A stretch of DNA of 46,229 bases from positions 1-46,229 of the IMG/VR virus record IMGVR_UViG_3300050821_005112, one strand, 5' to 3'. This document shows, piece after piece, positions 1,637 to 27,735 of the stretch. A program made the translations under genes and the position numbers. Source of the DNA: a virus. Every line of letters starts with the position of its first letter. Positions within the stretch are counted from its first letter, which is position 1. The notes beneath the pieces were generated by a model. That model did not search any database, had not been told where the DNA came from, and worked only from the letters and a program-made list of their open reading frames with translations.

Positions 1637-1668
1637 GTGATGGGAACCATGGCATGGTGTGGCATCGC

Positions 1669-1681
1669 CGCAACGCACCGT
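1669..1681 (-). promoter_or_regulatory. 13-bp late element, copy 1 (before endolysin)
   Basis: Minus-strand ACGGTGCGTTGCG, identical to five other sites in the window. It lies in the gap between the tailspike stop and the endolysin start, 32 bp ahead of the ATG. Directional placement suggests a promoter or activator/antitermination site. No conventional -35/-10 pair is visible around it. Confidence 0.6.
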
Positions 1682-1692
1682 GCGGACTTGAT

Positions 1693-3615
1693 TTATTGAA
1701 CGTAGGCCCGATTCCCGGCGACATCGGTGACCGTGCCGGCGCCAACCGAGCAGGCTCCGGTTCCTGGAAGAGCGGCTAGCCCACCATTGGTGTACAGCGA
1801 CGCGCCAGCCGAGAAGGCGCAGCGGTTCCCGGTGGCCCCAGTGCCGTTGAAACTGAGCGTGAGCGCTGCCGTCCCATTCCATGCGCCAAACACAAACCCG
1901 TTGGTCCATGCCGGAGTGTTCGACGTGTTGACGGTCACCGGTCCGCCGTTCTCCATATAGCCGCCGTTGGTCACCGACAGCGCCGCACCGATGTTGGCGG
2001 TGTAGAACAACGTCGCATTGAGATAGATATGGCCGCCCGAATTTGCGCCGATGCCGATGCCGGCCGGGTATCCGCCGGTGGGTGTCGATGAGATCGCGTC
2101 GACCTGCATCGGGCAGAAAATATTCACCTGAGAATTGCCCGAGACATACATGCCGTAGTTGGCATTGGTCCCGCCGGCGAGTTCAAAGCCGCCGATCAAA
2201 ATCGGGCTAACGCTGCCGCCCGCGCCGAAGGTAACCTGAATATCAGCATTGACGGCGGTTGACGGACTGAACTTTACGTTCGTCGGTGTGCCGCAATTGC
2301 CGATGTACTCCGGCGCGCCACCGATGAACGAAAGCCCAATGATGTTGAGCATCTGCGCCGCAGCAGTGATCGTGCACGGCGGCGTGCCGCAGGTATGATT
2401 GACAATCGCCAGCCCGCCGAACGGCTGGTTGATGTCGACCTGATCGGCGATCACCGAGAATCCGTGGTTAGGCGTCAACCACGCGCGCGCGGAGGAATTG
2501 GCGAGGCCGTCGTTGCTGTCGGAGCCGTCCGGACGCACGTAGAAATTGACCGTGGTCTGCAGCTGCCAGCGATACGGATTGATCAGGATATTCCAGGCGC
2601 CATTGATGATGCCGACGGTGACGGATTGCGTCGGCCAAAGAATGCCCGAAGAGTTGAGGCCTCCGGGGAAGCCGGATAGAAAGACACCGGCGAGCGCATT
2701 GCCGTTGGCGATCGTGACGACGCAGTTGGTCTGGAATCCAGAGACGGACGGCAGGGTGGCCGTCAGGCCGATGCCCACCATGTTGACGGTTTTGCTGCAA
2801 TCGGTGTTTGCGATCGGATAGCTGACGGTCTGGCCGTTCAGCAGATTGAGGCCCGCGCCGGGCAGGATGGTGGCGATCTGGGACTGCGTGCAGTCTTGCG
2901 CGTTGGCCGAGCCCGACGTCGGGTTGCACTTGATGGTGTCGGCGGCCATCGCCGCCAGCATGGCGTTCGTGATCGTGTTCGCGCCGATGCTGCCCGATGG
3001 GACGGAGGGCAAGCAAACCGGATTCAGGCCGGTCGAGTCGAACGCCATGTAGGCGCTGACGCAGGCGGCCGGCAGCGGCAATAATCCAAGCGTGTTGCCG
3101 GGCTGCGAGAAGATGCCGCGGCCAGTGAAATCGTTGGTCTTGTCCCACAGCTCGCGCTGCATCGCGATGACGTCGGTGAAGGTCTGGTTCAACGCGCGGG
3201 CCGGAACGCCCTGGCTTTCGTTGAACTGTGAGACGCGGCGCGGGCGGCGGGCGCCGACGATCTGAATCGTTCCGGTGACCGGCAGATTGAAGGTCAGGAT
3301 GGCGTCGGTGATCGGGCGCGGGATAACGGAGAGCGAGCCGGTCGGCGAGGTGATGGCCCAGCCGACGACCGGGTCGTTGTATGGCGCCAGCTTGCCGTTG
3401 ATGAAGACTTCGAGCCAATTCTGATAGTCGGTCGCGTCGCCCAGCAGCGCCATATTGACGCTGCAGGCGCAGGTCGAGGCCACGATCGAATAGGACTGCC
3501 GGCGCTCGGTGTCGGGCAGCGCTGGCACCGGCGGCGGGGCCTGGGCAAAAGAAACGGCCGGGACCAGCCCGGCCAGGAGGGCGAAAGCGAGGAGGAAACG
3601 GCGGGTCAGGCTCAT
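1693..3615 (-). CDS. Tailspike / tail fibre with Sec signal peptide and beta-helix-type body
   Basis: This 640-residue protein probably binds or degrades the host surface polysaccharide. Residues 1-25 (MSLTRRFLLAFALLAGLVPA...SFAQ) look like a Sec signal peptide, which is unexpected in a tail protein. Residues about 35-165 resemble the virion-binding N-terminal domain of T7-like tail fibres: a YSI...W-LEVFINGKL stretch, then the ARALNQTFTDVIAMQREL helix usual at the end of that domain. From about residue 355 (FYVRPDGSDSNDGL) the pattern fits the opening of a right-handed beta-helix, followed by Gly/Asn/Thr-rich repeats. I count fourteen cysteines after the signal peptide. It lies between internal virion genes and the endolysin, with a 13-bp element 30 bp ahead of its ATG. 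Receptor and enzyme activity cannot be told from sequence. Confidence 0.82.
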   Translation of the reverse strand: MSLTRRFLLAFALLAGLVPAVSFAQAPPPVPALPDTERRQSYSIVASTCACSVNMALLGDATDYQNWLEVFINGKLAPYNDPVVGWAITSPTGSLSVIPRPITDAILTFNLPVTGTIQIVGARRPRRVSQFNESQGVPARALNQTFTDVIAMQRELWDKTNDFTGRGIFSQPGNTLGLLPLPAACVSAYMAFDSTGLNPVCLPSVPSGSIGANTITNAMLAAMAADTIKCNPTSGSANAQDCTQSQIATILPGAGLNLLNGQTVSYPIANTDCSKTVNMVGIGLTATLPSVSGFQTNCVVTIANGNALAGVFLSGFPGGLNSSGILWPTQSVTVGIINGAWNILINPYRWQLQTTVNFYVRPDGSDSNDGLANSSARAWLTPNHGFSVIADQVDINQPFGGLAIVNHTCGTPPCTITAAAQMLNIIGLSFIGGAPEYIGNCGTPTNVKFSPSTAVNADIQVTFGAGGSVSPILIGGFELAGGTNANYGMYVSGNSQVNIFCPMQVDAISSTPTGGYPAGIGIGANSGGHIYLNATLFYTANIGAALSVTNGGYMENGGPVTVNTSNTPAWTNGFVFGAWNGTAALTLSFNGTGATGNRCAFSAGASLYTNGGLAALPGTGACSVGAGTVTDVAGNRAYVQ

Positions 3616-3645
3616 GGGCGGCAGGATGGCGATCAGGCCATCTGC

Positions 3646-3658
3646 CGCAACGCACCGT
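3646..3658 (-). promoter_or_regulatory. 13-bp late element, copy 2 (before tailspike)
   Basis: The same 13 bases as copy 1, starting 1 bp after the stop codon of the 831-residue internal virion gene and 30 bp ahead of the tailspike ATG. Identity with copy 3 extends over about 25 bp and includes the terminal His codon and TAG stop of the upstream gene. Confidence 0.6.
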
Positions 3659-3659
3659 G

Positions 3660-6155
3660 CTAGTGCGCCGTGATTGTCGACATGTCCGGCGCGCGCTGAG
3701 GCGTCGAATTACCCGGTGCCCACCAGAAGCCGGAACCGGTGGATTTCTGCACGTTGCGTTGGGCGCGATCCCAGCTCTTGCGGTAATCGGGATCGACCAG
3801 GGTCTGTAGCTTGTCCCAGAGCAGGCGGTCGACGGCGAGCCGGGTATACCAGGTGTTCGGCGTCGAGCGCTTCGCAATGTTGATCGCCGTCCGCCCTATC
3901 GTGCTCTGCCGATACTTCTGATCGTCGCTGAACTGCTCGCGCACCGGCGAGGTCGCCAGCCGCGCCACATCCGCCAGGACGCCGACGGCCGGGCCCGCCA
4001 TGCCCTGCAGCACGTCCGCGCTGGATTGCTGCCCCCGCATCGCGGCATCAATCAGTTCGCCGTAATAACCGGCTGCCCCGCCCTTGAGCATTGCGCGTGC
4101 CCAGAACGATGGCTTCTCCATGCTCTCCGGGTCCTTGCCGTTGATCAGGGATAGCGCTTCGATCGATGCTGCGCCCGCCGCCGTAGATAGCGTGACGAAC
4201 GCCAACCCGCGCGCGACCCGGTTCTCGATCGGTCCGTCGGTTAGCACCCGCATCATCTGGGTCGACATGCGGCTGAGCGCAAACGTCTTGAACTGGAACA
4301 GCGAGCGCCATGCCTCGGCACCGATACCCGGCCCGATATTGAACGCCGCGCCGCTCTCGATCGAGCGCAACCGGAAGTCCGGCTGATGCATCGCGAACGC
4401 GCCCTGCTCCTGGATCGCGTTCATCACTCGCTCGTAGAGCGGACGGTCGGCGGTCTGCAGCGTGTTCGGGTTGAGATATTTTGCGCCGCGCAGGTCCAGC
4501 TGGTGCTGCGGATCGCGCAGCTTGTTCCAGTCCTGCTCGGTGAAGCCGTAGCTATCGAGGAAGCCCTTGAACTTCGGATCGAGATCGGAGAAGGCCTTAT
4601 CGCTTTGCTGCGCGAACAGGTTGAGCATGTCGCCCGACCATGTCCGCTTTCCAACCTGCCCCCACGCGTCCAGCCCGGTCGCCTTCACCGTGCCCGACGC
4701 GAACTTTCCGGTGCTCTGCAGCAGCGAGACATGATCGTCATAATCCCTGATCCCGTTGACATAGTCCATCATCGAATGCGCCTGGATATTCAGATGCGCC
4801 GCATCATCCTTGGACACCCCGCCGCCGAACGTCCGCGCCATGTGGCCTATACCATCCATGCCAAGATGATTGGCCGCCAGCAGCTGCGTCACGCTGTCGG
4901 TCGGCAGCACCGAGAACACGGCCTGCCGCAGCGATGAGGCGACGTTCATGTTGCGCAGCGCGCCCAGCATCGAGGTCATGAAGGTGTCGTGGGTCGGATG
5001 CACCTGCCCTGTCGCGACCTTCCATGCGCCCTCGACCGCGCCTTTGCTCTCCAGCATCGCCGCTACCATCCGCGCCGGATTGCCCTTACCGACCGTGGCC
5101 GCAGGGATTTCCGGACTCGCCTTGGCCTCCTTGAACAGCGCGCGGAAGTTCGCCTCATAGCTCGGCCCGAACGTTTCGGTGAGCGCGATGTCGTGCGCCA
5201 TGCGGTCGAGGTGACCGACCATCATCTGCATGACGTTGGTGCCGGGGCCATACTTCTTTTGCAGGCTGAGATAGGCATCGGAGCCAGCTTGGCCACCGGC
5301 GAAGTTGAAGGTGCGCTGATTGGTCGAGAACGGCGCCGAGCCGCCGCCGGTGTTGGTGATGTCCTGATAAGCCACATTCATGATGGCATCGCGCTCAGCC
5401 ACAGTGGCCGGGCGGCTCTCGGCCTTGTTCCAGATCACCATCGCGCCCTTGTCGGCGGCTTCGTAGATGTCGCGAGTGAACTCGGCCTTGCCGATCGAGG
5501 CAACCCGCGTCCCACGCCAGAACTGCGGCACCCGCCAATCCTCAAGCTGATCGAACATCTTGCCGGACTGCTTGGCACGATCGGACGCATAGGTCGCCGC
5601 ATCGGTCCAGCCCTTCGCGGCCGACTTGGACAACGCATCGCCGGTATCGACCCCGAAAATCTCCCGGATCATGTTGTCGACGCCGGTCAATTGCTGCTGG
5701 GTCGCCCCCCGGAATCCCGGCTTGTAAGCCTCCATCCCCGCCGCAAACTTTTGGAACAGCGTCGCCACCGTAGCCTTGTACTTGCCCTCGACGTTCGGGC
5801 CCTGCTTGACCAGCGATTCCGCCGGCAGATCGCCGAACGCCTTGGCATCGCGCCAGAGGTCGCGGGTGATCATACCCGCCAGCGCCGCCATCCGGCCCAT
5901 GGGATGATCGGTCAGCCGCTGCTCGCCGTTCTTGAAGGCGGAGACCTGGGCCGAGATGTTGCGGATTTTCTCGGCGGAGGAGGTGCGCAAGGCCTTGGCG
6001 GCGGCGAGAGCGGCGGCGGCATCTGCAGAAGCCGGCGGCATTTCGTTGGTGAATTCGCGCTTCATCCTGGAGTGCATTTCGAGCGCACTATCAGCCGTAG
6101 CCTGTGGGATGGCTCTCGTGGCCACGAGTTTTGCGAGGCAATCTGCAACCGACAT
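3660..6155 (-). CDS. Large internal virion / ejection protein (831 aa)
   Basis: I do not recognise a domain with certainty. Length, position (last of three large genes between the tail tube genes and the tailspike) and an Ala-rich, helical, polar sequence fit the internal virion proteins that podoviruses eject into the host to bridge the periplasm. The middle contains alternating amphipathic stretches (for example around residues 390-440, LGALRNMNVASSLRQAVFSV) that could insert into membrane. The C-terminal 150 residues contain a hydrophobic Gly/Ala segment (FVTLSTAAGAASIEAL) and end in a basic region. ATG at 6155 lies 3 bp after the stop of the preceding gene. Confidence 0.7.
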   Translation of the reverse strand: MSVADCLAKLVATRAIPQATADSALEMHSRMKREFTNEMPPASADAAAALAAAKALRTSSAEKIRNISAQVSAFKNGEQRLTDHPMGRMAALAGMITRDLWRDAKAFGDLPAESLVKQGPNVEGKYKATVATLFQKFAAGMEAYKPGFRGATQQQLTGVDNMIREIFGVDTGDALSKSAAKGWTDAATYASDRAKQSGKMFDQLEDWRVPQFWRGTRVASIGKAEFTRDIYEAADKGAMVIWNKAESRPATVAERDAIMNVAYQDITNTGGGSAPFSTNQRTFNFAGGQAGSDAYLSLQKKYGPGTNVMQMMVGHLDRMAHDIALTETFGPSYEANFRALFKEAKASPEIPAATVGKGNPARMVAAMLESKGAVEGAWKVATGQVHPTHDTFMTSMLGALRNMNVASSLRQAVFSVLPTDSVTQLLAANHLGMDGIGHMARTFGGGVSKDDAAHLNIQAHSMMDYVNGIRDYDDHVSLLQSTGKFASGTVKATGLDAWGQVGKRTWSGDMLNLFAQQSDKAFSDLDPKFKGFLDSYGFTEQDWNKLRDPQHQLDLRGAKYLNPNTLQTADRPLYERVMNAIQEQGAFAMHQPDFRLRSIESGAAFNIGPGIGAEAWRSLFQFKTFALSRMSTQMMRVLTDGPIENRVARGLAFVTLSTAAGAASIEALSLINGKDPESMEKPSFWARAMLKGGAAGYYGELIDAAMRGQQSSADVLQGMAGPAVGVLADVARLATSPVREQFSDDQKYRQSTIGRTAINIAKRSTPNTWYTRLAVDRLLWDKLQTLVDPDYRKSWDRAQRNVQKSTGSGFWWAPGNSTPQRAPDMSTITAH

Positions 6156-6158
6156 GGC

Positions 6159-7913
6159 CTATTCCTTTTGTGCCGCTCGGAGCTGCTTCTCAAAGATGTT
6201 TGCAGCTTCTTCATTGCCCATGTCTTCTGGAATTAACGATTCGTGTTCTTCAATTGGCTCACTGAGTTTTCGAGTAAAATCAGCGGCCTCTTTCTGCATG
6301 ATAAGATCGTCGGTATCGAGAGTTGGGAGTTTCTCGGAAGTCAGCGGGCGTCCGCTGCGACCTCTTGATGTTACATCCCGTTTCAATGGCTGTGCCTCTT
6401 CTTCTGCCGGCGGGTTGATGCAGCTTTCCAACTGCTCAGCCGCATCACGATCGTTGTGCGCGTCAGCCAGCGCTTCGTCGAGCAGCCGATAGGTCGGATC
6501 GCCCTTCTCGTCCACGCCCATCGGGATCATGCCGCCCTGGCCGGTATCGCGCATCCGTTCTAGATCGGTGCTCATGGCGGTGACGTGGTTCTGGTCGGCG
6601 AGGATGGCAGCGTGGTCGACGGGCGCGGCGGGAATTTCGGTCGTGGGGATCGCGCGCTCGGCCGTAGTGATTGCAGAGACGCTGGGCAATGTGTCGGGCA
6701 ACGTGCGGGGGCGCAGCATGAACTCATCAAGCGCAGCCGTCGCCTGATCTGTGGATAGCCTTGAGACTTTTTCCGCTAGCGCGCGCGCTTCATCCGGTGC
6801 GATGTCGGCGCCGACTGACTTGGCCAAATCCTCCAAATGCCCGCCAAGTTTTGCGACCGCCGCCGTCTCCTGACCTTCTGCGATAGAGCCGGCGAATGGA
6901 AGCTCCGGCGCCACTTGCGCTTCCTGCGCGGCGCGCTCCATCTGCACTGCGTTGCGCGCGGCCTTGACTTCGGACAGGGCATCAAGAGCCGGGTCCAGCC
7001 TTCGATTGTACGAGGCAAGCACGCTACCTTGGAGACTATCTCCGGTATCGACTGGCTTGCCCGACACGATTTGATCGATGCTGTCCTGCAGGGCGGTCCG
7101 ATGCGCCGCCTCGCCCTCGACGCCCGGCAGCACGTTGCTCTGCTGGATATTGGCTTCGCTCTCGACGATGTTGCCGGCGTCGCGGACCGAGCGCGGCCAT
7201 TCGCCGGTCTTCATCCGGGTCCATGTGTTGCCGAGCCCCTTGAACAGGCCGCCAAGCACCGCGCCGCCAACCGCGCCCTCGACCACGTTCATGCCGGGCT
7301 GGTCCGACGCCGTATAGCCCGGCTCGACCTGATTGCGAAAGCCGGCGCTCATCACCTCGTTAACGGCCTGCGAGGCCGCGCCGTAACCACCCCATGCCGC
7401 CGCAGTGCCGAGCACGCCAAGCTCTGCCTCCGGCGCCACGGCCAGCCCTACCAGATTGACCGGGTCCACCGTGCCAGATGCCAGCCCGCCAAGCACGCCA
7501 CCGATCTTGCCGCCGAGGGTCTTCTCGCGGCCGGCCATGTCGGTTGCGGCCTGGTGCGCCTCGGATGACGCCGCCACCGCGCGCCGGTTCAGCTCGTCAT
7601 CGGTCAGGTCGGGAACCTGGAGATCGGGCTGCGTCTTTCTGATCTTGGCAACCGCCTCGTTGGCGGCGTTCATCATGTCGAGCCGGCCATAGACATCCCG
7701 CCTGATGTCCTGCCCGCTGGCCTTGTTGACGTCGTCGATATAGCTGTCGAGCCCGGCCATCTGCGCATTGCCGCGCGCGATCGATCCGGAGAAAAGCTGG
7801 CCCTCGTGCCACGCTGCATCGAAGGTGTCGCCGAAGGTGGCGGGCAGATCAGTGCCTTCGGCAGGCCCGATCTTGGCCGAGACGCCCTCGTTGTTTTGCC
7901 AGAGGTCGAGCAT
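6159..7913 (-). CDS. Internal virion protein candidate (584 aa)
   Basis: A polar, Ala/Glu-rich protein with a central Gly/Ala-rich stretch around residues 130-215 (GGKIGGVLGGLASG, GAVGGAVLGGLFKGLG) of the sort seen in ejection proteins that cross membranes. The C-terminal third is acidic and probably coiled-coil. Its start codon overlaps the stop of the 971-residue gene (ATGA), so the two are translationally coupled. I infer a structural/ejection role from synteny with the gp14-gp15-gp16 region of T7-like phages. No enzymatic motif is seen. Confidence 0.65.
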   Translation of the reverse strand: MLDLWQNNEGVSAKIGPAEGTDLPATFGDTFDAAWHEGQLFSGSIARGNAQMAGLDSYIDDVNKASGQDIRRDVYGRLDMMNAANEAVAKIRKTQPDLQVPDLTDDELNRRAVAASSEAHQAATDMAGREKTLGGKIGGVLGGLASGTVDPVNLVGLAVAPEAELGVLGTAAAWGGYGAASQAVNEVMSAGFRNQVEPGYTASDQPGMNVVEGAVGGAVLGGLFKGLGNTWTRMKTGEWPRSVRDAGNIVESEANIQQSNVLPGVEGEAAHRTALQDSIDQIVSGKPVDTGDSLQGSVLASYNRRLDPALDALSEVKAARNAVQMERAAQEAQVAPELPFAGSIAEGQETAAVAKLGGHLEDLAKSVGADIAPDEARALAEKVSRLSTDQATAALDEFMLRPRTLPDTLPSVSAITTAERAIPTTEIPAAPVDHAAILADQNHVTAMSTDLERMRDTGQGGMIPMGVDEKGDPTYRLLDEALADAHNDRDAAEQLESCINPPAEEEAQPLKRDVTSRGRSGRPLTSEKLPTLDTDDLIMQKEAADFTRKLSEPIEEHESLIPEDMGNEEAANIFEKQLRAAQKE

Positions 7914-10828: not shown

Positions 10829-10860
10829 CAGCCTACGCTCCTGCTTCGGCTCGACATGTG

Positions 10861-11394
10861 CTATTGCCCGCTTACGCCGGCGATCGGGTTGAAGCCGGGG
10901 ACGGTGATGCCGTTGCCGCCGCCGATCTTGCCAATCGAGCCGACGGCCCCGCTCGCCCCCTTCAGCAGCGTCCCGGCAATCGAGAGGTCGCCGCCCAGCA
11001 GCGCCGTACTGGCCGCCTGCCCCATGTAGGCGGCGCTGGCCTCGTCGGTCCTCGCCTGCTCATCGATATTGGCAACCGTGATATCCTTCTGCTCCGTTCC
11101 GGTGGTCTCGACATAATCCCGCACCGCCGCGCTCGTCGGCGAGGTCGGATCGGTGCGCTGCGCCGCGCGCACGGCATCGATGTTGCCGAGCGTCATGGTC
11201 AGGTTTTGCGTCAGCTTGGCGTTGGTCTGCTGTGCCTTCAGCTCGCCGTAGGTCGCCGCTTGGTCGAGCTGCTGGGCCTTGAACTCGTCGGCCGTTGCGG
11301 TGCCCTGCGCCGCCACGCCCTGACTGGCTGCGGACAGGCCCACCGAGGCGAGAGACATGGCGGCGGTAACGCCGAGGGTGACTGGATCGCCCAT
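10861..11394 (-). CDS. gp14-like small internal virion protein
   Basis: This 177-residue protein opens with an Ala/Ser-rich amphipathic stretch (MGDPVTLGVTAAMSLASVGL), continues with a Gln/Ala/Lys helical region and ends in a Gly-rich tail. T7 gp14-type internal virion proteins share this build and sit right after the tail tubular B gene, as here (its ATG at 11394 directly adjoins the upstream stop). The call rests on composition and position. Confidence 0.62.
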   Translation of the reverse strand: MGDPVTLGVTAAMSLASVGLSAASQGVAAQGTATADEFKAQQLDQAATYGELKAQQTNAKLTQNLTMTLGNIDAVRAAQRTDPTSPTSAAVRDYVETTGTEQKDITVANIDEQARTDEASAAYMGQAASTALLGGDLSIAGTLLKGASGAVGSIGKIGGGNGITVPGFNPIAGVSGQ

Positions 11395-13761
11395 CTAGAT
11401 GCTTACCTCGATGCCGATTTCGCTGAGCTGAAACTGGCCTGGCGTATCCTTGATGATCGCGACCCTGGCGTCCGGCGATCGGCCGAGCGGTCGCGCGCGC
11501 TCGAATCCCTCGCGTAAGGGCGGCGGCAGCAGCGGGTTGTCGCCCTGATTCCAGGCTGGGATGCGGCGGTTGTTCATGATGGTGCCGAGCGGCGGAGAGA
11601 TTGGCGTCAGCGGTCCGGAGAACAGCCGCGCCATCACGAAGCCGGTGGAGTTGACGAAGTAGGCAACCCATCGTGACACCCGGCGCTTGAACATGCGCTG
11701 ATGCACGCTCTGGCCCGGCGAGGCGTCAGGGGTGAACGGCTCGATCGTCATGGTCCAAGCCTGCCCGGCGACCAGCGAGCTCGATGCGAGGTTCTCGCCA
11801 CCTTGGCCCTGCGGAATGATGAAGCCGTTGGCGTCGATCTTGTACGTCCCCATCATGCGCGTGCCCTGATCCATCAAGGTCACGCTCTGGCCGGGTATAA
11901 AATACAGCGGCCCCTTGCCGCCAGGAGGCGTGAACGCAGCGGGCGGGCTGTTCACCAGAAACGCGCCATCGAGATATTGCGTGTCGTCAACGACCTCGAC
12001 CATGTTGAAGCCGCTGAAATAAGTCGTGGTAAAGATCACATCGGCATTGTTGGCCGATACCCATTTGTAGCCCGTATTCGGACCCGACCACGGGCTCCAG
12101 CCAATATCATCCCCAATCGATCCGTCATGAATGTTGTACTTGCCGACCGTCATCGAGCCATTGGCGTTGAGCACATAGAGATAGCGTTCCTGAAACGTCG
12201 AATCGGCATTCGGTGCGGCCAGCGCCACGATGTTATTGAACAGATGGGTTGCGAACTCGCTGATGTTCTTGGTGTTGAACGGCCGATAGTATGCGCCCGG
12301 CGCCACCACCGCCATCACGCTATTGCCGCCGGCCCTGACATAGAAGATCACGTCCTGCGCGACCCGCGGCTGCACCGCGGCGGCGCCGTCGCCGGAGAGT
12401 GTCTGGAAGCTGACATTGCCGGGGATCAGCGGCGTCTGCGCATCGATCTTGATGTAATAGATTTTGTGATCGCAGAATACGAATTCCGAACTCTCCGGCC
12501 CCGCCACCACATAGCGGATGCGCACCTTGTCCGGCGCGATTTCGAAGATCGCGTTGCTGGGCGAGGAAGCATCATTGGCATAGATGTCCGTCTGCGCATT
12601 GATCGCCGACCACAGGATGCCGCCGGGGATCGCCGGGAAATCGCAGAAGCCGAGACGGAACTGGTCAGTGAAGCACGATGCCGGGAAACCCCGCAACGCG
12701 TTCATGACCTCATCATCCCATATCGTGACCGCCTGCGGAGCGCCAGTCGCTCCGCTGACAACAAGTCCAGTCGGGCCAAGCGCACCGCCGGGGCCTGCGA
12801 CGGTATCGGTGCCGAGAAAGGCAAACACGGTCGGTGCCAGCGTTTGCGCGCCGCCGGTTCGGTCAAAGGCGCCGGGATTGGCAGCGGTCTGTGTGAACAG
12901 GACCGACGTGACGACCGAGAGCAATTGCACGTTGATGTTCTTGCCGGCGGCATTGATGCTGGTCACGATGCCCTTCGACCCGGATACTGATCCGATCACC
13001 TCATCGCCGAGGTTATAGTAGGGCGTCGGATCGACGGCGAAGGTCAGTGTCTGACTGCTGGGCAGCGTCTCCTCGACCGTCGCGGTGACGTGCTGCGTAT
13101 CGGTGAAGGCGGTAATTAGAAGCTGGCGGCCGATATAGCGGATACGGGTTCCGACGCTTGCCGAGGTGAACACCGGAGCGGAAGCCGTCACCGTTACCGA
13201 GCCGGTCGTGGCGGAGGGCTGCAGCGTTATGCCCTGCGGCGAGATGCGATAGAATGGCGTGCGCTTCTGGTTGGTGTAGAGCACCTCGTTATAGTCGGCG
13301 ATCGTCCACGACGAGACGCCATCCCACGATACGACCTGCGGGCGCATACCGGTGAAGGTGATGTAGATCGATAAGCCGATGATGCAGAAGACAATGCTGT
13401 CGATATCTGGATTGCCCCATGGCAAGGCGCCGCCGCTACCGGTCGCAACGAAATTTGCTACGAGAACACCGGCCGAATTGATGATCTGTATGCGTCCAGG
13501 CACCGCGGAAAACTGGATATCGAACACGTTGCCGGGGGACATCGTGATACGATCGGTGCGCGGCGCGTTATTGATGTTATCAGGATAGAGCGCGCGGCGG
13601 CCGGGCCGGTTCTGCGGCTTCTTCGAATTGAGCAGCCGCGCATTGCTCATCTGGCGCAGGCCCGCCTTGAACGCCGGATGCTCGTCGGAGCGCTTCAGCT
13701 CGACGTCGACCTCGCCATAGGAGAAGTCACGTTGGGCGCCGGTGATTTTTGGAATTGCCAA
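11395..13761 (-). CDS. Tail tubular protein B-like nozzle protein (788 aa)
   Basis: This forms the distal tail tube or nozzle in T7-like and related podoviruses. The N-terminus is typical of that family: MAIPKITGAQRDFSYGEV, then HPAFKAGLRQMSNARLL and the RPGRRALY motif, followed by a long beta-rich body with repeated aromatic/Gly-Asp patterns. It lies between the tail tubular A-like gene (upstream, 11 bp gap) and the gp14-like gene, the standard order. Length agrees with the family. No truncation is visible. Confidence 0.85.
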   Translation of the reverse strand: MAIPKITGAQRDFSYGEVDVELKRSDEHPAFKAGLRQMSNARLLNSKKPQNRPGRRALYPDNINNAPRTDRITMSPGNVFDIQFSAVPGRIQIINSAGVLVANFVATGSGGALPWGNPDIDSIVFCIIGLSIYITFTGMRPQVVSWDGVSSWTIADYNEVLYTNQKRTPFYRISPQGITLQPSATTGSVTVTASAPVFTSASVGTRIRYIGRQLLITAFTDTQHVTATVEETLPSSQTLTFAVDPTPYYNLGDEVIGSVSGSKGIVTSINAAGKNINVQLLSVVTSVLFTQTAANPGAFDRTGGAQTLAPTVFAFLGTDTVAGPGGALGPTGLVVSGATGAPQAVTIWDDEVMNALRGFPASCFTDQFRLGFCDFPAIPGGILWSAINAQTDIYANDASSPSNAIFEIAPDKVRIRYVVAGPESSEFVFCDHKIYYIKIDAQTPLIPGNVSFQTLSGDGAAAVQPRVAQDVIFYVRAGGNSVMAVVAPGAYYRPFNTKNISEFATHLFNNIVALAAPNADSTFQERYLYVLNANGSMTVGKYNIHDGSIGDDIGWSPWSGPNTGYKWVSANNADVIFTTTYFSGFNMVEVVDDTQYLDGAFLVNSPPAAFTPPGGKGPLYFIPGQSVTLMDQGTRMMGTYKIDANGFIIPQGQGGENLASSSLVAGQAWTMTIEPFTPDASPGQSVHQRMFKRRVSRWVAYFVNSTGFVMARLFSGPLTPISPPLGTIMNNRRIPAWNQGDNPLLPPPLREGFERARPLGRSPDARVAIIKDTPGQFQLSEIGIEVSI

Positions 13762-13772
13762 TCAGGCCTCCC

Positions 13773-14516
13773 TTAACCGGGCGTGCCCGATCCGGAGCCG
13801 CTTCCCCATTGGCCGGTGCCCTGCTGCGGCCACGGCCGGCGGACGCGACGCGATGCGCCCATGCGCGAGTTGAAGAAAGAGCGCTTCGGCTTCTGCTGGT
13901 CGTAGCGGGTGCGGGCTTCCTGCAGCAGCGCGCGCGCTGCCTGCTCCTCGACCCTGGCTTCCGCGACATCCTCATGCAGGCCCCGATAGTTTCCGGCCAT
14001 CACGAAGCGCTGCAGAGCGGCAACCAGGGTCGGCGTTCCGCTGGTCGAATCGCACAGCGCGCCGGCGTTCGAGATGTACTGGATGAACACCGCGCAGGGG
14101 GTCTGCGGCGGGCTCGGCGGCGGCGGGCCGCCTTGCGCGTTGATCAGCAGCAGCGGGCCGTTTGGACCGGCCTGGATGTCGTATAGCGTGAGTTGGTTGG
14201 TGTCGAACGGCAGCGGCGTCGAGGAGTTCTGGTTGATCTTGGCCCACAGCAGGAACACCAGATCCGATGGCAGCGGATAGGCGGTGTCCCAATCGGTGTC
14301 GGCCGGCGCCGTCGGGCTCGGCTGCAGGGTCACGACCTTCTTGGCAAAACCCCAGGAATGGCTCTCGCTGATATAGCCGATCGCGGTCTCATAGGCCTCG
14401 GAAGCGACGTTCCACTCGTCGGAGCCGTCATCCGCGACAGCCACGATGTTGTCCCCGGTGAGCAGCAGCGCCGAGTTGCAGACCGATAGCTTGTCTCTTG
14501 GAAACTCGAAGGCCAT
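13773..14516 (-). CDS. Tail tubular protein A-like adaptor (247 aa)
   Basis: This connects the portal to the tail nozzle. Family signs are CNSALLLTGDNIVAVADDGSD near the N-terminus, the EAYETAIGYISESHSWGFAKK motif (residues about 41-62) and the LPSDLVFLLW core. The C-terminus is Gly/Ser/Arg-rich. A 13-bp element lies 29 bp ahead of its ATG, so adaptor, nozzle and internal virion genes may form a separate transcription unit. Confidence 0.83.
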   Translation of the reverse strand: MAFEFPRDKLSVCNSALLLTGDNIVAVADDGSDEWNVASEAYETAIGYISESHSWGFAKKVVTLQPSPTAPADTDWDTAYPLPSDLVFLLWAKINQNSSTPLPFDTNQLTLYDIQAGPNGPLLLINAQGGPPPPSPPQTPCAVFIQYISNAGALCDSTSGTPTLVAALQRFVMAGNYRGLHEDVAEARVEEQAARALLQEARTRYDQQKPKRSFFNSRMGASRRVRRPWPQQGTGQWGSGSGSGTPG

Positions 14517-14545
14517 GCCCGACCATGCGGCGGGCTATGGGGTGC

Positions 14546-14558
14546 CGCAACGCACCGT
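14546..14558 (-). promoter_or_regulatory. 13-bp late element, copy 3 (before tail adaptor)
   Basis: Same 13 bases, starting 1 bp after the stop of the 60-residue secreted protein and 29 bp ahead of the tail adaptor ATG. With copy 2 it shares a longer block that includes CACTAGC on the minus strand. Confidence 0.6.
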
Positions 14559-14559
14559 G

Positions 14560-14742: not shown

Positions 14743-14796
14743 GGTCGGTTTTGGCTCCACGCGAGCGTCTTAACGGCTAAAACCGGAAGTGGCAAC

Positions 14797-15674: not shown

Positions 15675-15680
15675 CAGGGC

Positions 15681-17430: not shown

Positions 17431-17431
17431 G

Positions 17432-18076: not shown

Positions 18077-18088
18077 GTCGTCGTTTCC

Positions 18089-18310: not shown

Positions 18311-18319
18311 TTCAGGGTC

Positions 18320-19273: not shown

Positions 19274-19285
19274 CGCTTAAAGCTC

Positions 19286-20143
19286 CTATTGCCGGCCGCC
19301 GGTGACGGTCTGGAATTGCTTCTGATCGTGCGAGCGCGAGTAGTCCCACTTCTGGGACGGGGTCATGGTGGCCCACTGGGCTTCCGTGACCTTGCCGGGC
19401 TGTTCCGGCGGCTCGCTTCCGTTGCGGCGGAAACTGCCGCCGCCTTGGCCCGTGATCTTACCGACAAGCTTTTCCATGATCTGGACATCGCTCGCGGTGA
19501 AGGCGCGAGACATCAGCTGCTTGCCCTCGGCCTCGCTGAGGTACGCCTTGAAGAAGGTCTCGCAGGCATCGACACGCGCCGGACCGGCTGGGCCAAGTTT
19601 GGCGACCTCGGCGTTATGAGCCGCGGTGACCTGTTGCTGGGTGCCGATTCGGTCGCCGGCGATCAGCGCGATGCCCTTGGCGAAGGCTTCCTGGGAAAGG
19701 CCGTTCTCGTGCGCCCAGGCGCGGGCCTGCGCCCACAGCGGATTGGCGGCGTCGATCTTGAACTCGGTGCCCTGCGGCGCGGCGAAGTCGGTGGGGAGCT
19801 CGACCTTGTAGGCATCGGGATTGGCCGGCAGCGATAGCTGCTTGGATTGGGCGGCGGCGTCGCGCGCGAAAATCTGGTTGAAGTGTGCGGCGAGCTGCGC
19901 GTCGTCCTTGACCTTGTTGGCGGTCGCATCCCAGTGCGATTCGGGGATGTATTCAGGACGCTGTTGGGCCTGGGTTTGGGTCTGACCCGCCTGGGTTTGC
20001 TGCGTTCCCTGTCCCGCCGTAGACTGGGTCGTCCCAGCCTGCGACTCTTGTGTTTGAGTTGATCCGGCGCCCTGCCCCGCGGCTTGCTGGCTGCTGCCGC
20101 TCTGGGTCGACTGTGCGGTTGAGGACGATTGCGTATCGGTCAC
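19286..20143 (-). CDS. Capsid scaffold / assembly protein
   Basis: A 285-residue protein expected to guide procapsid assembly. Residues 1-60 are a low-complexity Gln/Ser/Thr/Gly stretch, followed by RPEYIPESHWDAT, which resembles the conserved YIPEKFWD-type start of podovirus scaffolds, then a helical region and a C-terminal segment ending in Gly/Arg and Gln-rich helices. The start is GTG at 20143 with AAGGGA 10 bases upstream; it lies inside the 3' half of the 130-residue ORF in another frame. Confidence 0.78.
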   Translation of the reverse strand: MTDTQSSSTAQSTQSGSSQQAAGQGAGSTQTQESQAGTTQSTAGQGTQQTQAGQTQTQAQQRPEYIPESHWDATANKVKDDAQLAAHFNQIFARDAAAQSKQLSLPANPDAYKVELPTDFAAPQGTEFKIDAANPLWAQARAWAHENGLSQEAFAKGIALIAGDRIGTQQQVTAAHNAEVAKLGPAGPARVDACETFFKAYLSEAEGKQLMSRAFTASDVQIMEKLVGKITGQGGGSFRRNGSEPPEQPGKVTEAQWATMTPSQKWDYSRSHDQKQFQTVTGGRQ

Positions 20144-20345
20144 TGTCGGCGATTCCCTTGGCCATGAGGCCCATCAATTCGGACGCGAACATGCGGCGGC
20201 CCTCCAGCTGCCGCAACGCACCGTCACCGATCTCGGGCGTCGCCACGTTGAGGAGAATCTTCTGCAGGTGATGGAACAGCATCTGACCGTCCGCGGTGCG
20301 CGCGAGGCGGTCGATGGCTTCGAGGATGTCCTTTTGCTCGATCAT
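19953..20345 (-). CDS. Small conserved-type gene upstream of scaffold, overlapping it
   Basis: The first 70 residues (for example MLFHHLQKILLNVATPEIGD and ALRQLEGRRMFASELM) look like a genuine small podovirus protein found between portal and scaffold. The frame stays open for another 60 residues inside the scaffold gene, giving an unusually long 191-bp overlap in which the C-terminal residues are Gly/Asn/Pro-rich. The ATG at 20345 has GGAG upstream. A 13-bp element copy falls inside the coding sequence at GDGALRQ. Function unknown. Confidence 0.6.
   Translation of the reverse strand: MIEQKDILEAIDRLARTADGQMLFHHLQKILLNVATPEIGDGALRQLEGRRMFASELMGLMAKGIADSDRYAIVLNRTVDPERQQPASRGAGRRINSNTRVAGWDDPVYGGTGNAANPGGSDPNPGPTAS
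20212..20224 (-). promoter_or_regulatory. 13-bp late element, copy 4 (inside small gene, before scaffold)
   Basis: Identical 13 bases, here translated as part of GDGALRQ in the 130-residue ORF. It lies 69 bp ahead of the scaffold GTG. Because it is coding, chance identity cannot be fully excluded, but orientation agrees with the other copies and a signal here would serve scaffold and capsid genes. Confidence 0.45.
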
Positions 20346-20375
20346 CCTACGCGCTCCGCGCTACGGCTCGACAAG

Positions 20376-21980: not shown

Positions 21981-21983
21981 GCC

Positions 21984-22220
21984 CTACAGCCCCCGTTGCG
22001 TGGGGACGACGGCGGCCGGTGGCGGAGCGGCGAGCGGGGAGCCGGATGCGGCGCCGGACATCGCCAATTGCGTGCCGTAACGCGCCATCAGGCTCGCGGT
22101 GTCGGACTGCGATTCCTGCTGCAGCGAGGAGACCAGATCACTTTGCGCCTGCGCCTGCTCCTGCGCGAGCATCGGATCGACCGGAAGCGGCGGCGGTGGC
22201 GGCGGGCTGTCGGTGTTCAC
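21984..22220 (-). CDS. Small proline- and glutamine-rich protein (78 aa)
   Basis: The N-terminus has a run of prolines (SPPPPPPLPVDP), followed by a Gln/Ser/Ala helix and a Pro/Ala C-terminus. It starts with GTG at 22220, overlapping the 3' end of the 160-residue gene by 83 bp in another frame, and ends 3 bp before the portal start. Possibly a small structural or assembly factor; unrecognised. Confidence 0.5.
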   Translation of the reverse strand: MNTDSPPPPPPLPVDPMLAQEQAQAQSDLVSSLQQESQSDTASLMARYGTQLAMSGAASGSPLAAPPPAAVVPTQRGL

Positions 22221-22620
22221 TGATCACGGTTCCACCATTGCGGTGGATATGGCGGTAGAGCGCTGCGGGGGTTATCGCAACGCACCGTAGCCCGATCAGA
22301 TGCTTGACCGCGTTGACGCAGGTGAAGCCGATGCGCGATGACCATCCCATGCGCTGACCGACGCGCGCGATGCGGACCACGGCGCATCCCGAGGTCCATC
22401 GCATGATCGCCGCCTTGTCGAACAACATGACGCGGGTCGCCGACCACTGCACGTCATAGAGCAGCCACACCTTGACGCCGGGGCAATAGCCGAACGCGGA
22501 GACGTGCTTGAAGCGGCCGGGCGTCAGCAGGCCGATCCAGCGGTTGGCGGATTTCACGTGAAACACCACGAACCATTCGCTCGGCTCGATCGCGGTTGCC
22601 ACGTCGACCACCGCGTCCAT
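22138..22620 (-). CDS. Hypothetical protein next to terminase (160 aa)
   Basis: The first 110 residues look genuine and compact: EWFVVFHVKSANRWIGLL, FKHVSAFGYCPGVKVWLLYD and a mixed alpha/beta pattern rich in Trp and aromatic residues. Such a gene beside the large terminase is common in this podovirus type. ATG at 22620 is 1 bp after the terminase stop. The C-terminal third becomes Arg/Ala-rich where it overlaps the next small gene. Function unknown. Confidence 0.62.
   Translation of the reverse strand: MDAVVDVATAIEPSEWFVVFHVKSANRWIGLLTPGRFKHVSAFGYCPGVKVWLLYDVQWSATRVMLFDKAAIMRWTSGCAVVRIARVGQRMGWSSRIGFTCVNAVKHLIGLRCVAITPAALYRHIHRNGGTVISEHRQPAATAAASGRSDARAGAGAGAK
22276..22288 (-). promoter_or_regulatory. 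13-bp late element, copy 5 (before portal unit)
   Basis: Identical 13 bases inside the 3' part of the 160-residue ORF (coding LRCVAI), 56 bp ahead of the GTG of the small proline-rich gene and upstream of the portal. Same orientation as the genes. Confidence 0.48.
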
Positions 22621-22621
22621 C

Positions 22622-24178: not shown

Positions 24179-24248
24179 CGCCTGACGTTAGCCGCCAAAG
24201 ATAACCAGCCGCAAACCCGCAACCAAACACAATCAGGAATATCGTCAT
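24150..24248 (-). CDS. Tiny membrane protein (32 aa)
   Basis: MTIFLIVFGCGFAAGYLW forms one membrane segment, then a short polar tail. Its ATG overlaps the stop of the Cys-rich 61-residue gene (ATGA), and it runs 29 bp into the terminase gene. The coupling and hydrophobic pattern support a real gene; function unknown. Confidence 0.45.
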   Translation of the reverse strand: MTIFLIVFGCGFAAGYLWRLTSGDDRMGRHLG

Positions 24249-24430
24249 CGCTTCGCCTCCCAGAGATCGCAGACATCATCCGGCTCGATGATGCCCTTGA
24301 CGCGCCTGCAGCGGCGGCTACCTGTCGGGCCGTAGCTGTAGCGGCAGGTCTTGCAGCGCTGCTCGCCGGTGGCGTCGCGGTAGTTCACGCTGGTCTTGTC
24401 TTTTTTGCCGGCGTCCTCGTCGTCGGTCAT
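24245..24430 (-). CDS. Small four-cysteine protein (61 aa)
   Basis: After a charged N-terminus the sequence has CKTCRYSYGPTGSRRC and IIEPDDVCDLWEAKR. This spacing resembles small phage proteins with a zinc- or iron-sulfur-type knuckle (CxxC...C...C). Start chosen as ATG at 24430, which overlaps the upstream stop; the frame is open ten codons further. Metal binding is inferred. Confidence 0.6.
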   Translation of the reverse strand: MTDDEDAGKKDKTSVNYRDATGEQRCKTCRYSYGPTGSRRCRRVKGIIEPDDVCDLWEAKR

Positions 24431-24630
24431 TGCCGCTTCAGCTCCGGATGTCGCCGCCATGCCTCAGGCGCGGTTTCCATCGCCTTTTTGGTGGTTGCAT
24501 CGTCGGTACCTAATCGATCGGTGACATGGTCCGCCCATGCCTGTAGGCTTGGCCAGCCACGTTCCTTGGCGTCGGCTTCGGTAAGCGGTCGATCGACATC
24601 CCAAATTCCGTTTTCCGAACACATCGCCAT
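24427..24630 (-). CDS. Hypothetical protein (67 aa)
   Basis: A small acidic helical protein (for example DVDRPLTEADAKERGWPSLQ). It begins with ATG at 24630 overlapping the stop of the 252-residue gene and ends overlapping the next start. The upstream extension of this frame is a shadow of the 252-residue gene. Function unknown. Confidence 0.55.
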   Translation of the reverse strand: MAMCSENGIWDVDRPLTEADAKERGWPSLQAWADHVTDRLGTDDATTKKAMETAPEAWRRHPELKRQ

Positions 24631-25388
24631 CACGCGCTCCCGATCGTCGGCATGAACGGCATACCCGGCCGCTCCGGCTCGACCAGCACCATTCCGGGCG
24701 GGATGCCCGCGCCTTGCAGCTTCTCGCAGTGCTTGAAGATGCGGCGCTGCTGCTCCTCGTCGGCGGCCGAGACCACGATCTCGAACTCGTCGCCGCGCAC
24801 CCGCTCGATCCGGCATTTCAGTTCGACCTGGATCAGCACTGCGCCAAGCTCCGGGTCTGGCGACAGGTCGGACTGGTTACCCTCGCGCAGGATGATGTGC
24901 TTCTTGGTCCCGATCTTCTTCAGGTTATGCGCCCAGGCACGCAGCTCGTCCTGATAGCGAAGCTGGAAATATTCCGGCACGGTGCCATCAAACACCCAGC
25001 GCGCCACCTTCGGCCGGCCATGGCTCTTGGCCTTGGCCGCGGCCTCGTGCGCAGCAAAGATGCCCGGCAGCGCCTCACAGTGCTGCGCGATCCTGCGCTC
25101 GTCTTCCTCGGTCTGCGGATGAATCACAAACCGCATCTTCTTTGTCACCGGGTCGCCGTATGCGTCGCACTGCAACGTGGCGCGGCCTTGCCAGTTCGAC
25201 GAGATCACGGTCACATCGGGAGGGTTCAGCAGATCGATGGTGCACAGATTGCCCTGCGTCAGCGTCTTGGCCCAGCCGAACAGTTCGTTCTGGTAGGTCC
25301 GCAGGAACCTCTCCGGAATTTTCTCAAATGAGGCATCGAACGGATGGTTGTCGTTCGAGGCTCGCAGATGCCCTGCAATCATGCTCAC
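24630..25388 (-). CDS. Hypothetical protein with internal tandem duplication (252 aa)
   Basis: Two similar halves are visible. Residues about 25-107 start with IPERFLRTYQNELFGWA and end with EEDERRIAQHCEALPG; residues about 138-225 start with VPEYFQLRYQDELRAWA and end with EEQQRRIFKHCEKLQG. So the protein is a two-repeat fold with a conserved His-Cys-Glu end in each unit. The N-terminus carries ASNDN, common in alphaproteobacterial proteins. Start is GTG at 25388, overlapping the phosphatase stop (GTGA); an ATG two codons later is possible. I do not recognise the family. Confidence 0.65.
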   Translation of the reverse strand: MSMIAGHLRASNDNHPFDASFEKIPERFLRTYQNELFGWAKTLTQGNLCTIDLLNPPDVTVISSNWQGRATLQCDAYGDPVTKKMRFVIHPQTEEDERRIAQHCEALPGIFAAHEAAAKAKSHGRPKVARWVFDGTVPEYFQLRYQDELRAWAHNLKKIGTKKHIILREGNQSDLSPDPELGAVLIQVELKCRIERVRGDEFEIVVSAADEEQQRRIFKHCEKLQGAGIPPGMVLVEPERPGMPFMPTIGSA

Positions 25389-26176
25389 GACGCAATCCCT
25401 CCGCTCTCCACCGCCATCTCGTTCGCCGGCCGCACCTTCGCGCCGCCCGCGATCATGGTCCCGATCGACGGCTGCCCGGTCGGAATGACCTGTCCGACCC
25501 AGCCCAGCCCATCCATCTTGTACCTGATCCCACCGCCGGGCGGAACGGTGTCCGGCTCCTCAGCCAGCCATTCGGCGAAGTCGCGGTGCATGCACTCCTC
25601 GTCGCACCCCGCCGCCACCCAGAAATCGATCACCTGCACCGAGCGGCCATGCGCCACGATCGCCGCCGTAAGCCCGTCGCTCGCCGCCTGCTCAAACACC
25701 TTGCCGGCATAACCAAGCAGCCGCGACGCAAAGCTGCGGAAGCTCTCACCCCCCGGCGGCACGGTGGTATCCTCCCGCACCCAGGCCCTGATCTGCTCGA
25801 CCACCTCGGGCGTGGTCACCTTGCCCTCCATCGACGCCCCCATGTCCCAGGAGCGCAGATCTGCCACCGCCACGATCGGGGGATAGCCCACGTTCTCATC
25901 CGACAGGATTTCCGCGGTTTTGGTCGCCCGCTGCAGGTCGGAACTGTGGATAACCGCGATCTTCTCCCCCGCGATTCCCCACGCCACCACCTGCACCTCG
26001 CGCTCGCCGGCCTCCGTCATCGGGATGTCCGAGTGCCCGCGTACCTGATCCATCCCCACCCCGCCGCGGTTGCGGTCGGTCGAGCCATGCCGCAGCACGA
26101 ACACCGTGCCCCGCGCCGGCGCCAACGCCGCGATCTGCCGCATCAGCGGGTTCTGGGTGCGGCGCGTGATCGCCAT
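25385..26176 (-). CDS. Histidine phosphatase superfamily protein
   Basis: A 263-residue protein of the phosphoglycerate-mutase-like superfamily, which uses a phosphohistidine intermediate. All catalytic elements are seen: LRHGSTDRN (His30 with Arg29), SSDLQRATKTAEIL (Arg83), MEGK (Glu117), PGGESFRSF (Glu144) and VAHGRSV (His176). About 80 residues follow the core, including CDEECMHRDFAEWL. It sits between small genes of the packaging module, an unexpected place for a metabolic-type phosphatase. ATG at 26176 chosen; an in-frame TTG precedes it. Substrate unknown: nucleotide, sugar phosphate or protein are all possible. Confidence 0.82.
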   Translation of the reverse strand: MAITRRTQNPLMRQIAALAPARGTVFVLRHGSTDRNRGGVGMDQVRGHSDIPMTEAGEREVQVVAWGIAGEKIAVIHSSDLQRATKTAEILSDENVGYPPIVAVADLRSWDMGASMEGKVTTPEVVEQIRAWVREDTTVPPGGESFRSFASRLLGYAGKVFEQAASDGLTAAIVAHGRSVQVIDFWVAAGCDEECMHRDFAEWLAEEPDTVPPGGGIRYKMDGLGWVGQVIPTGQPSIGTMIAGGAKVRPANEMAVESGGIAS

Positions 26177-26224
26177 CAATAATCTCCAAATTTGTAACTG
26201 TCGCTGATCAGGCGACGAGCCTTC

Positions 26225-26590
26225 TCACGACTTCCCTGAACCGTTTGGGAGGTTGGACAAAGCCCGAACCGTCGCCTCCATGTCCGCCAGGTCAACCTCA
26301 CGCTCCACAATCGCCGCATCCCCCGCCGCAAACGCCTCAGGCTCCCGCGCATCGATCGCATCCAATCTCTTCAGCCACTCGTCACCCTTCGCATCATGCG
26401 CCAGCTTCTTCCGCTTGATCCGGTCCGCAGCCTCCGAAAGCTTGTTCACCCGCCGCCCTTCCTCAATCCCCGAAGCCAACACCGCATCCAGCTTCCTCGA
26501 CGCCTCCACAGCCCGCCCCGTCCGAGCCGCCGCATTCCGCAGATCCGCCTCGCGCTCGATCGGATGACGGGTGTCACGCCATAGGGCCAT
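26225..26590 (-). CDS. Hypothetical coiled-coil protein (121 aa)
   Basis: A highly charged helical protein (Arg/Glu/Ala/Lys-rich; for example NKLSEAADRIKRKKLAHDAK), likely coiled-coil through most of its length. Starts with ATG at 26590 overlapping the stop of the 58-residue gene. Codon use is unusually C-rich at third positions. Unknown function; perhaps packaging related from position. Confidence 0.6.
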   Translation of the reverse strand: MALWRDTRHPIEREADLRNAAARTGRAVEASRKLDAVLASGIEEGRRVNKLSEAADRIKRKKLAHDAKGDEWLKRLDAIDAREPEAFAAGDAAIVEREVDLADMEATVRALSNLPNGSGKS

Positions 26591-26766
26591 CAGCCAGTTG
26601 CGTCCGCAGCATCAAGCGAGTGACCAATGCGCCGCTCGACAATCACTTTCCACAGCCGATCGTGCTCCTCGTCGTCAGCCGCATCGCGGCCAAACTGCTG
26701 CTTGATCTCGAATGCCTGCATCTCTCGAATGCAGCGCTCATCCATCGCCGAGTAAAATACCGTCAT
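26590..26766 (-). CDS. Small hypothetical protein (58 aa)
   Basis: Reads MTVFYSAMDERCIREMQAFE then polar helical sequence to HSLDAADATG. It is coupled on both sides by ATGA overlaps. The continuous frame, coupling and sensible composition support a gene. Function unknown. Confidence 0.55.
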   Translation of the reverse strand: MTVFYSAMDERCIREMQAFEIKQQFGRDAADDEEHDRLWKVIVERRIGHSLDAADATG

Positions 26767-27035
26767 CGAAAATCTCCGGGAAAAAATCTGAACGGAACCC
26801 CAAACGATTTCAGGGAAAGCTGTGTGTCAGCGATACGAGCCCGCGCGCGAACTTCCATTTTTCCCCCCGGCCTCGCCTCACAGCCGATCGACGGATGGTT
26901 GAGCGCGATCGGGAGAGCCTGGTGCGTCATCGGCAGCGCCTGAACTCTCGGCAGCGGCAGCGTTTGTGGCGCATTAACGCAACTGTCCTTGCCAAGGAAT
27001 ATGCTGATGCTCGCATCACGTTGATCCATCTGCAT
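26763..27035 (-). CDS. Doubtful small gene between packaging genes (90 aa)
   Basis: An open frame exactly fills the gap between the small-terminase candidate and the 58-residue gene, overlapping both by a few bases. Composition is mixed (Pro, Arg and Phe), with no recognisable motif, so it may be a gene or a chance frame in a non-coding spacer. Confidence 0.33.
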   Translation of the reverse strand: MQMDQRDASISIFLGKDSCVNAPQTLPLPRVQALPMTHQALPIALNHPSIGCEARPGGKMEVRARARIADTQLSLKSFGVPFRFFPGDFR

Positions 27036-27495
27036 TATCGATGATCGTTGCAGTCGGCTGTGTCAGTCGTGTGCCAGAACCGACGTTGATCTGCACGACC
27101 AAGCCAGGCAATGACTGCGCTTGAGCACCTTGTCGCGTATCTTCAGCCGATCCTGCAAGCTCTTTCGCTGCGTTGAATGCGACCATCTTGTTGTCGTCCT
27201 GGTCTCGCAGCTCCGTCATTCTGAAAACGCTGCGAGCACGCTCCGACAAGCGAAGCACCTCCAACTGCCGCAGGTAATACGCTTTCACATGAGGCTTGGT
27301 GAGCGCGACGTAGAGCGCGTGATCCTTCAATCCAGCCTTCTCGGCTGCGTCGGAGCGCTTGAGGCCGTCCCACACCATTGAGTCGATGGCGAGCTTGTTT
27401 CGGCCGCTGATTCGGAGTGTTTCGGTTGGTTTTGCAGCCTTGTTGAAGGCTAGAGCCGGATCGACAGGCGGGATGGTGGTCAGACATTCACCCAT
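27016..27495 (-). CDS. Terminase small subunit candidate
   Basis: A 159-residue first gene of the late operon. The segment from about residue 34 (LAIDSMVWDGLKRSDAAEKAGLKDHALYVAL) looks like a helix-turn-helix as found in small terminases, which bind the packaging site. A helical oligomerisation region follows, then a polar C-terminus with VVQINVG, usual in such proteins. Position at the head of the packaging/head operon agrees. The large subunit lies 2.8 kb downstream. Confidence 0.65.
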   Translation of the reverse strand: MGECLTTIPPVDPALAFNKAAKPTETLRISGRNKLAIDSMVWDGLKRSDAAEKAGLKDHALYVALTKPHVKAYYLRQLEVLRLSERARSVFRMTELRDQDDNKMVAFNAAKELAGSAEDTRQGAQAQSLPGLVVQINVGSGTRLTQPTATIIDNADGST

Positions 27496-27616
27496 GCGGC
27501 TGGTCGTTCCTCGGCGTTGCCTTCGTCACTGTGCTTCCGCTCGGCAAGCTCGCTACAGAAGGAACGCGGGCGCGATGCGGGACGCGCGAGGTGGATACGC
27601 TGGGTGGGGATGGGCT

Positions 27617-27629
27617 CGCAACGCACCGT
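27617..27629 (-). promoter_or_regulatory. 13-bp late element, copy 6 (head of late operon)
   Basis: Identical 13 bases on the minus strand, 121 bp ahead of the small-terminase candidate. It lies in the 240-bp divergent gap, 61 bp from an opposite-strand near-copy. The leader between it and the first gene has no clear open frame. Confidence 0.6.
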
Positions 27630-27690
27630 GGTGAAGATGGTGCGGTTGTTGGGGTTTTGTGCGATTGCGGGTGGTGACGTCGTGAGGCTT

Positions 27691-27701
27691 GGTGCGTTGC
27701 G
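27691..27701 (+). promoter_or_regulatory. Opposite-strand copy of the late element (copy 7)
   Basis: GGTGCGTTGCG on the plus strand matches the core of the minus-strand element; the two bases before it (TT) differ from AC. It stands 34 bp ahead of the ATG of the helix-turn-helix gene at 27736, the same spacing as copies 1-3, supporting a role in divergent transcription. Confidence 0.5.
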
Positions 27702-27735
27702 GGGCAAAACCGATAGTTTACATCCTGTTGCAACA

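Follow-up and report, generated by a model that had tools for sequence, protein, structure and literature searches.

The element repeated through the late region of the viral DNA analysed here (a linear IMG/VR record of 46,229 bases, hereafter the window) probably marks the late promoters of a temperate podophage. With a probability of roughly 0.7, its copies would serve host sigma70 polymerase, start leaderless messages and depend on the protein encoded at 28580-29092 as activator. The box-bearing phages are a large, almost uncultured group of soil bacterium phages with a predicted promoter before each virus-building gene block. A preliminary description of the window had read the element as a promoter or as an activator or antiterminator site. 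Our analysis favours a promoter together with a phage factor and makes antitermination less likely. The promoter part is suggested by the orientation of the copies, a -10-like hexamer at sigma70 spacing, an ATG at the predicted +1 and concerted swaps of the box.

The window is a temperate podophage with matches for integrase, exonuclease VIII, an XRE repressor, terminase, a portal-like head-tail adaptor, major capsid protein and endolysin. The minus strand is the late-gene strand. Its first late gene (27016-27495) is terminase small subunit-like by position and by conservation beside the terminase large subunit, and gave no family match. Megablast of the first 25 kb of the window against deposited phages found no match. 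The early region holds a phosphoadenosine phosphosulfate reductase-like gene (40629-41450, plus strand). A gene for a weakly GcrA-like HTH protein (32158-32721, minus strand; Pfam E 0.013, below cut-off) occupies the cro position and diverges from the XRE repressor gene.

The 13-mer CGCAACGCACCGT is the commonest 13-mer of the window. Its six exact minus-strand copies at 1669, 3646, 14546, 20212, 22276 and 27617, reported in the preliminary description, were all recovered, as was the 11-bp core on the plus strand at 27691-27701. The statement that this is beyond chance holds, with 0.0014 minus-strand copies expected under a second-order Markov model against six found. All six copies are oriented with the late genes and precede the blocks for terminase small subunit, portal, scaffold and capsid, tail, fibre and endolysin; the seventh is opposite, toward an HTH gene. 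The distances to start codons had also been given correctly: 32, 30, 29 and 34 nt separate copies 1, 2, 3 and 7 from the ATGs at 1636, 3615, 14516 and 27736. The long match noted between copies 2 and 3 extends over about 24 bp.

Most copies are followed by a predicted -10 hexamer, identified by sequence and a hexamer model. Copy 1 (box ACGGTGCGTTGCG, 1669-1681, minus strand) stands before the endolysin gene, whose ATG at 1636 lies 33 nt past the core, and its putative hexamer CATGGT (1646-1651, minus strand) 18 nt past it. Copy 2 (3646-3658, minus strand) precedes a tail-fibre-like gene (1693-3615; ATG at 3615, 31 nt past the core) and has the candidate hexamer CATCCT at 3623-3628 on the same strand. 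Before the tail gene 13773-14516 is copy 3 (14546-14558, minus strand), with the ATG at 14516, 30 nt past the core, and a predicted CATGGT at 14522-14527 (minus strand); the homologous position is occupied in six relatives (G006, G008, G015, G018, G026 and G030). Copy 4 (20212-20224, minus strand) lies within gene 19953-20345, which is upstream of those for scaffold and major capsid protein; relatives keep it near +1700 relative to the start of the portal match. Its predicted hexamer is CATGTT (20188-20193, minus strand); copy-4-like sites, which were outside the training set, score 3.0 bits at that spacing. Copy 5 (22276-22288, minus strand) is within a small gene between the terminase and portal genes and has no good -10 match in the window. 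Copy 6 (27617-27629, minus strand), before the terminase small subunit-like gene, has a weak -10 match and a start codon about 120 nt on; its position is also occupied in G008, G015 and G030. The divergent copy 7 (core TTGGTGCGTTGCG, 27689-27701, plus strand), with a putative hexamer CATCCT 20 nt past the core (27721-27726, plus strand, from sequence), probably drives the HTH gene 27736-28050 (plus strand), which encodes a 104-residue protein with a weak HTH_23 match and a homologue in G030. About 35 nt past copy 6 and before the terminase small subunit gene is a conserved block, GCGCGTCCCGCATCGCGCCCG (27560-27585, minus strand, in the window; near 6470 in G008 and near 28430 in G030), which may serve as a cos/pac site or RNA element.

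The element recurs at homologous positions in related phage genomes. An unbiased set of 91 loci (80 viral and 11 genome loci, 1.1 Mb) was collected by portal alignment, which avoids motif bias, although many of its loci are close relatives. A scan of the genome contigs with the window's own terminase found nothing, whereas the portal alignment succeeded there. In these loci the 11-mer has 48 forward copies and one reverse copy. The core conserved across relatives is GTGCGTTGC, which the late strand carries 172 times and the other strand once, in 62 of the 91 loci; it tops the strand bias among all their 9-mers. Measured from the portal match start, conserved sites lie at about -300 and +1700. 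Relatives found by terminase bear copies in two places that they share with the window. In relatives it also precedes genes for terminase small subunit, portal, scaffold or capsid, tail, fibre and lysis. A scan of the collection yielded further contigs with eight, seven and five co-oriented copies, against none in the reversed control. Loci from the pattern scan are motif-selected and were kept out of the enrichment statistics; the site set nevertheless took in named pattern-scan contigs with several copies. In two Bradyrhizobium genomes and one MAG, a dense co-oriented cluster is confined to the prophage. Bradyrhizobium strains Arg816 and 141 are among the carriers of prophages of this kind. 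A host-wide function of the box was rejected, its density outside the prophage being at background level in these three host genomes. Several side observations come from single relatives. In L134 (G008), at 196-310, a box copy lies immediately upstream of a tRNA-Arg gene. The terminase large subunit ORF of L202 (6830-9307) holds a long insert that begins with CFAAGTKV, ends with VSN-C and looks like an intein. Near the contig end of L204, overlapping low-complexity ORFs (662-1440) encode alanine-rich or glycine/proline-rich repeats.

A second conserved part, which the preliminary description had missed, is the hexamer near 18-20 nt downstream. Expectation maximization (EM) found CATtGT at 18-20 nt past the core with a score of 318, compared with at most 203 in 20 shuffles. 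With in-gene sites removed, C, A and T make up 80%, 93% and 73% at hexamer positions 1, 2 and 6. Sites outside the training, those within genes among them, score 3.0, 2.3 and 1.2 bits at the same spacing against a background of about -0.9. The common layout is box GTGCGTTGC, 18-20 nt, hexamer CAynGT, 5-7 nt, ATG. An ATG is enriched 30-33 nt past the core (59 of 201 non-redundant sites); it follows the hexamer by 5-7 nt in 47/55 cases, a spacing that is partly built in since the group was picked by ATG at 30-33 nt. From TTGC plus two bases to the hexamer there are 16-18 bp, the spacing of sigma70 promoters. The two distances thus suggest a sigma70 layout with the start codon near +1, and the sequence supports a sigma70-type promoter. 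Shine-Dalgarno-like motifs precede only 3/55 of such starts in comparison with 37/78 portal starts. Because they are so rare, and with the start codon at the predicted +1, the late messages are probably leaderless.

We infer promoter function, initiation at +1, use of sigma70, and binding and activation by the 28580 protein. The TTGC of the box G-N-N-C-R-TTGC would sit at the -35 place, with the hexamer about 18-20 nt downstream, and host sigma70 RNA polymerase would start from the degenerate -10 hexamer CAynGT. Where the copy is non-coding, the first transcribed base would be the A of the ATG or one next to it, so that the late mRNAs would be leaderless. The box may owe its specificity to its 5' half (GTGCG in the window), most likely read by 28580, which would act as a class-II-like activator.

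Two lines of evidence concern the box as DNA. The copy-5 element before the portal gene is coding and is read as CVA in 26 loci, GAL or SAL in 23 and VRC in six; because it is read in three frames, selection acts on the DNA. An A-L codon test for copy 4 was dropped as circular, its sites having been chosen by sequence. The second line is the exchange of box alleles. Other lineages have GATCATTGC, GGGCATTGC, GGTCATTGC or GTACGTTGC, and in L202 and L204 one of the first two, GATCATTGC or GGGCATTGC, occupies all four homologous sites; GATCATTGC is the box at the predicted promoters of L201 and L202. A single matching allele is present in 61 of the 66 loci having both portal-flanking sites, with GTGCG at both in 44 loci, GATCA in 12 and GGGCA in three; many loci are close relatives, so that these counts are not independent events. 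Flanking bases, too, resemble one another more within genomes than between them, with 0.66 versus 0.41 at -1 and 0.70 versus 0.43 at +9.

The probable cognate factor, judged by gene neighbourhood and box association, is the XRE-fold protein encoded by the last gene before the late region (28580-29092, minus strand). This candidate late activator of 170 residues, with a basic helical C-terminal part, was one of two proteins named in the preliminary description for binding tests. Its family occurs upstream of the terminase small subunit in almost every locus, as no other gene family does, and it is present in 7/7 related near-full-length contigs searched. An apparent absence from lineages with other boxes (27/28 versus 0/7) was rejected as an artefact of truncated loci; the whole-contig search found the family in L201, L204 and, partially, L202. 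Searches of PHROGs, Pfam and NCBIfam with the protein returned no family. The AlphaFold2 model has a mean pLDDT of 90.7. Foldseek top matches had probabilities of 0.92-1.00, yet E values above 0.01. VIA comparison of the N-terminal 70 residues with HipB gave Z 8.8 and rmsd 1.9 over 71 residues, and the modelled N-terminal domain appears to be an XRE-type HTH. This predicted part matches the XRE/Cro-C1 HTH fold of HipB, C.Esp1396I and ClgR; 28580 differs from them by an identity of 10-20%, the extra basic helical C-terminal part and the lack of a sequence-family match. If the family read a single invariant box, its recognition region would be expected to vary less than it does, and an attempt to map box alleles onto family residues gave no mapping.

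The strongest link between factor and box, in sequence terms, is independent of the phage: 15 homologues of the 28580 family in Bradyrhizobium have no portal or terminase nearby. In 10/15 of these stand-alone loci, the strand of the gene also bears GTGCGTTG no more than 800 bp from the gene start, where 0.15 are expected (Poisson tail about 2e-15 if independent); it is missing in the other 5/15. The stand-alone boxes lie in differing frames and have a -10-like hexamer at the same spacing as the phage sites. In L280, L283, L285 and L290 the box is within or just past the stand-alone gene, and the start of a short ORF follows. Gene, box and short ORF are possibly a self-contained two-gene module.

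These loci bear on the best surviving alternative, an unlikely one, in which a different phage factor reads the box, be it an undetected sigma-like protein, the GcrA-like product of 32158-32721 or the HTH protein of 27736, and 28580 is a mere neighbour. The weak GcrA match in the window and sigma70 region 4 matches above cut-off in two related contigs speak for it, but no such family is common to the box-bearing contigs, and the stand-alone homologues tie the 28580 family itself to the box.

Somewhat less probable is that the copies are processive antiterminator sites of the lambda Q/put or nut type, several loading points on one late transcript, with 28580 as the antiterminator. Antitermination sites are usually single and near the promoter, in contrast to the multiple copies found here. 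Moreover, the copy at each gene block is followed at sigma70 spacing by a -10-like hexamer, and start codons stand at the predicted +1, which argues against this reading, even though 28580 lies where lambda Q would, ahead of the late region, and the copies lie between genes of one operon. The window likewise differs from lambda Q in its many sites with -10 elements.

The fixed distance to ATG at many sites could point to an element acting in RNA (translation enhancer, leader or processing site) or to a packaging or replication site on the DNA. Such a role is very improbable: copies 4 and 5 are within genes and have no start codon at that distance, with a shared -10-like hexamer only at the predicted spacing, and neither the restriction to one strand nor the location at gene blocks hints at packaging. 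Promoters of the T7 type, read by a single-subunit phage polymerase, can hardly be credited despite their similar late-gene distribution and within-genome uniformity, since the element is two-part with sigma70 spacing and PF00940 found nothing in the window or in 18 related records, some of them fragments, while detecting the T7 control (E 9.9e-110), in agreement with the earlier remark that the window encodes no such polymerase.

The system predicted here, sigma70-type promoters with 28580 as activator, belongs in kind with the phage promoters that depend on an activator. Among these are the late or middle promoters served by P2 Ogr, Mu C, lambda CII and T4 MotA, at which a small phage protein reads a box near or above -35 and so lets host sigma70 polymerase use a poor promoter. 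Like the window, these phages have several promoters with a common box near -35 or just upstream. The window differs in its box sequence, the single asymmetric G-N-N-C-R-TTGC layout and the probable leaderless starts, and its protein family is without Pfam, PHROG or NCBIfam match. With the T7 group the window's predicted promoters share the repetition of one podophage sequence before gene blocks, uniform per genome and lineage-specific; the window differs in having no detected single-subunit RNA polymerase and a bipartite sigma70-type layout. GafA and GafY-GafZ are phage-derived alphaproteobacterial activators of gene transfer agent structural genes, and the gene transfer agent promoters of C. 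crescentus were reported to be sigma70-dependent (PMC6363796, PMC9638019, PMC11150451). Compared by description, GafA and GafY resemble 28580 in being alphaproteobacterial, phage-derived and tied to structural genes. The GafY protein of C. crescentus acts from a distant upstream site, requires IHF and has the antiterminator GafZ as partner (PMC11150451); by this description it is set apart from the window, in which many predicted promoters each bear a box overlapping -35.

A literature search on the motif and on the late promoters of this kind of phage turned up no description. The chances seem about even that 28580 represents an undescribed class of late activators, with an XRE fold and a basic helical tail, which reads an asymmetric box fused to the -35 of distributed leaderless promoters; the box would be exchanged in concert at all sites as lineages diverge, and host chromosomes would keep stand-alone pairs of protein and box. 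The analysis provides a predicted promoter map and a candidate regulator for a group of alphaproteobacterial temperate podophages that is large and nearly uncultured and whose genes are mostly unannotated. The exchange of box alleles at all homologous sites of a genome offers a natural experiment on the joint change of regulator and promoter specificity. If true, a leaderless late-gene programme would be run by a compact activator family that is also found apart from phages in Bradyrhizobium chromosomes.

The closest deposited phage is Microcystis phage Mwe-JY08 (portal 41%). It has six copies of GTGCGTTGA and one of GTGCGTTGC, all forward and with the same geometry, and encodes at 11123-11641 a protein that resembles 28580, as judged by eye.
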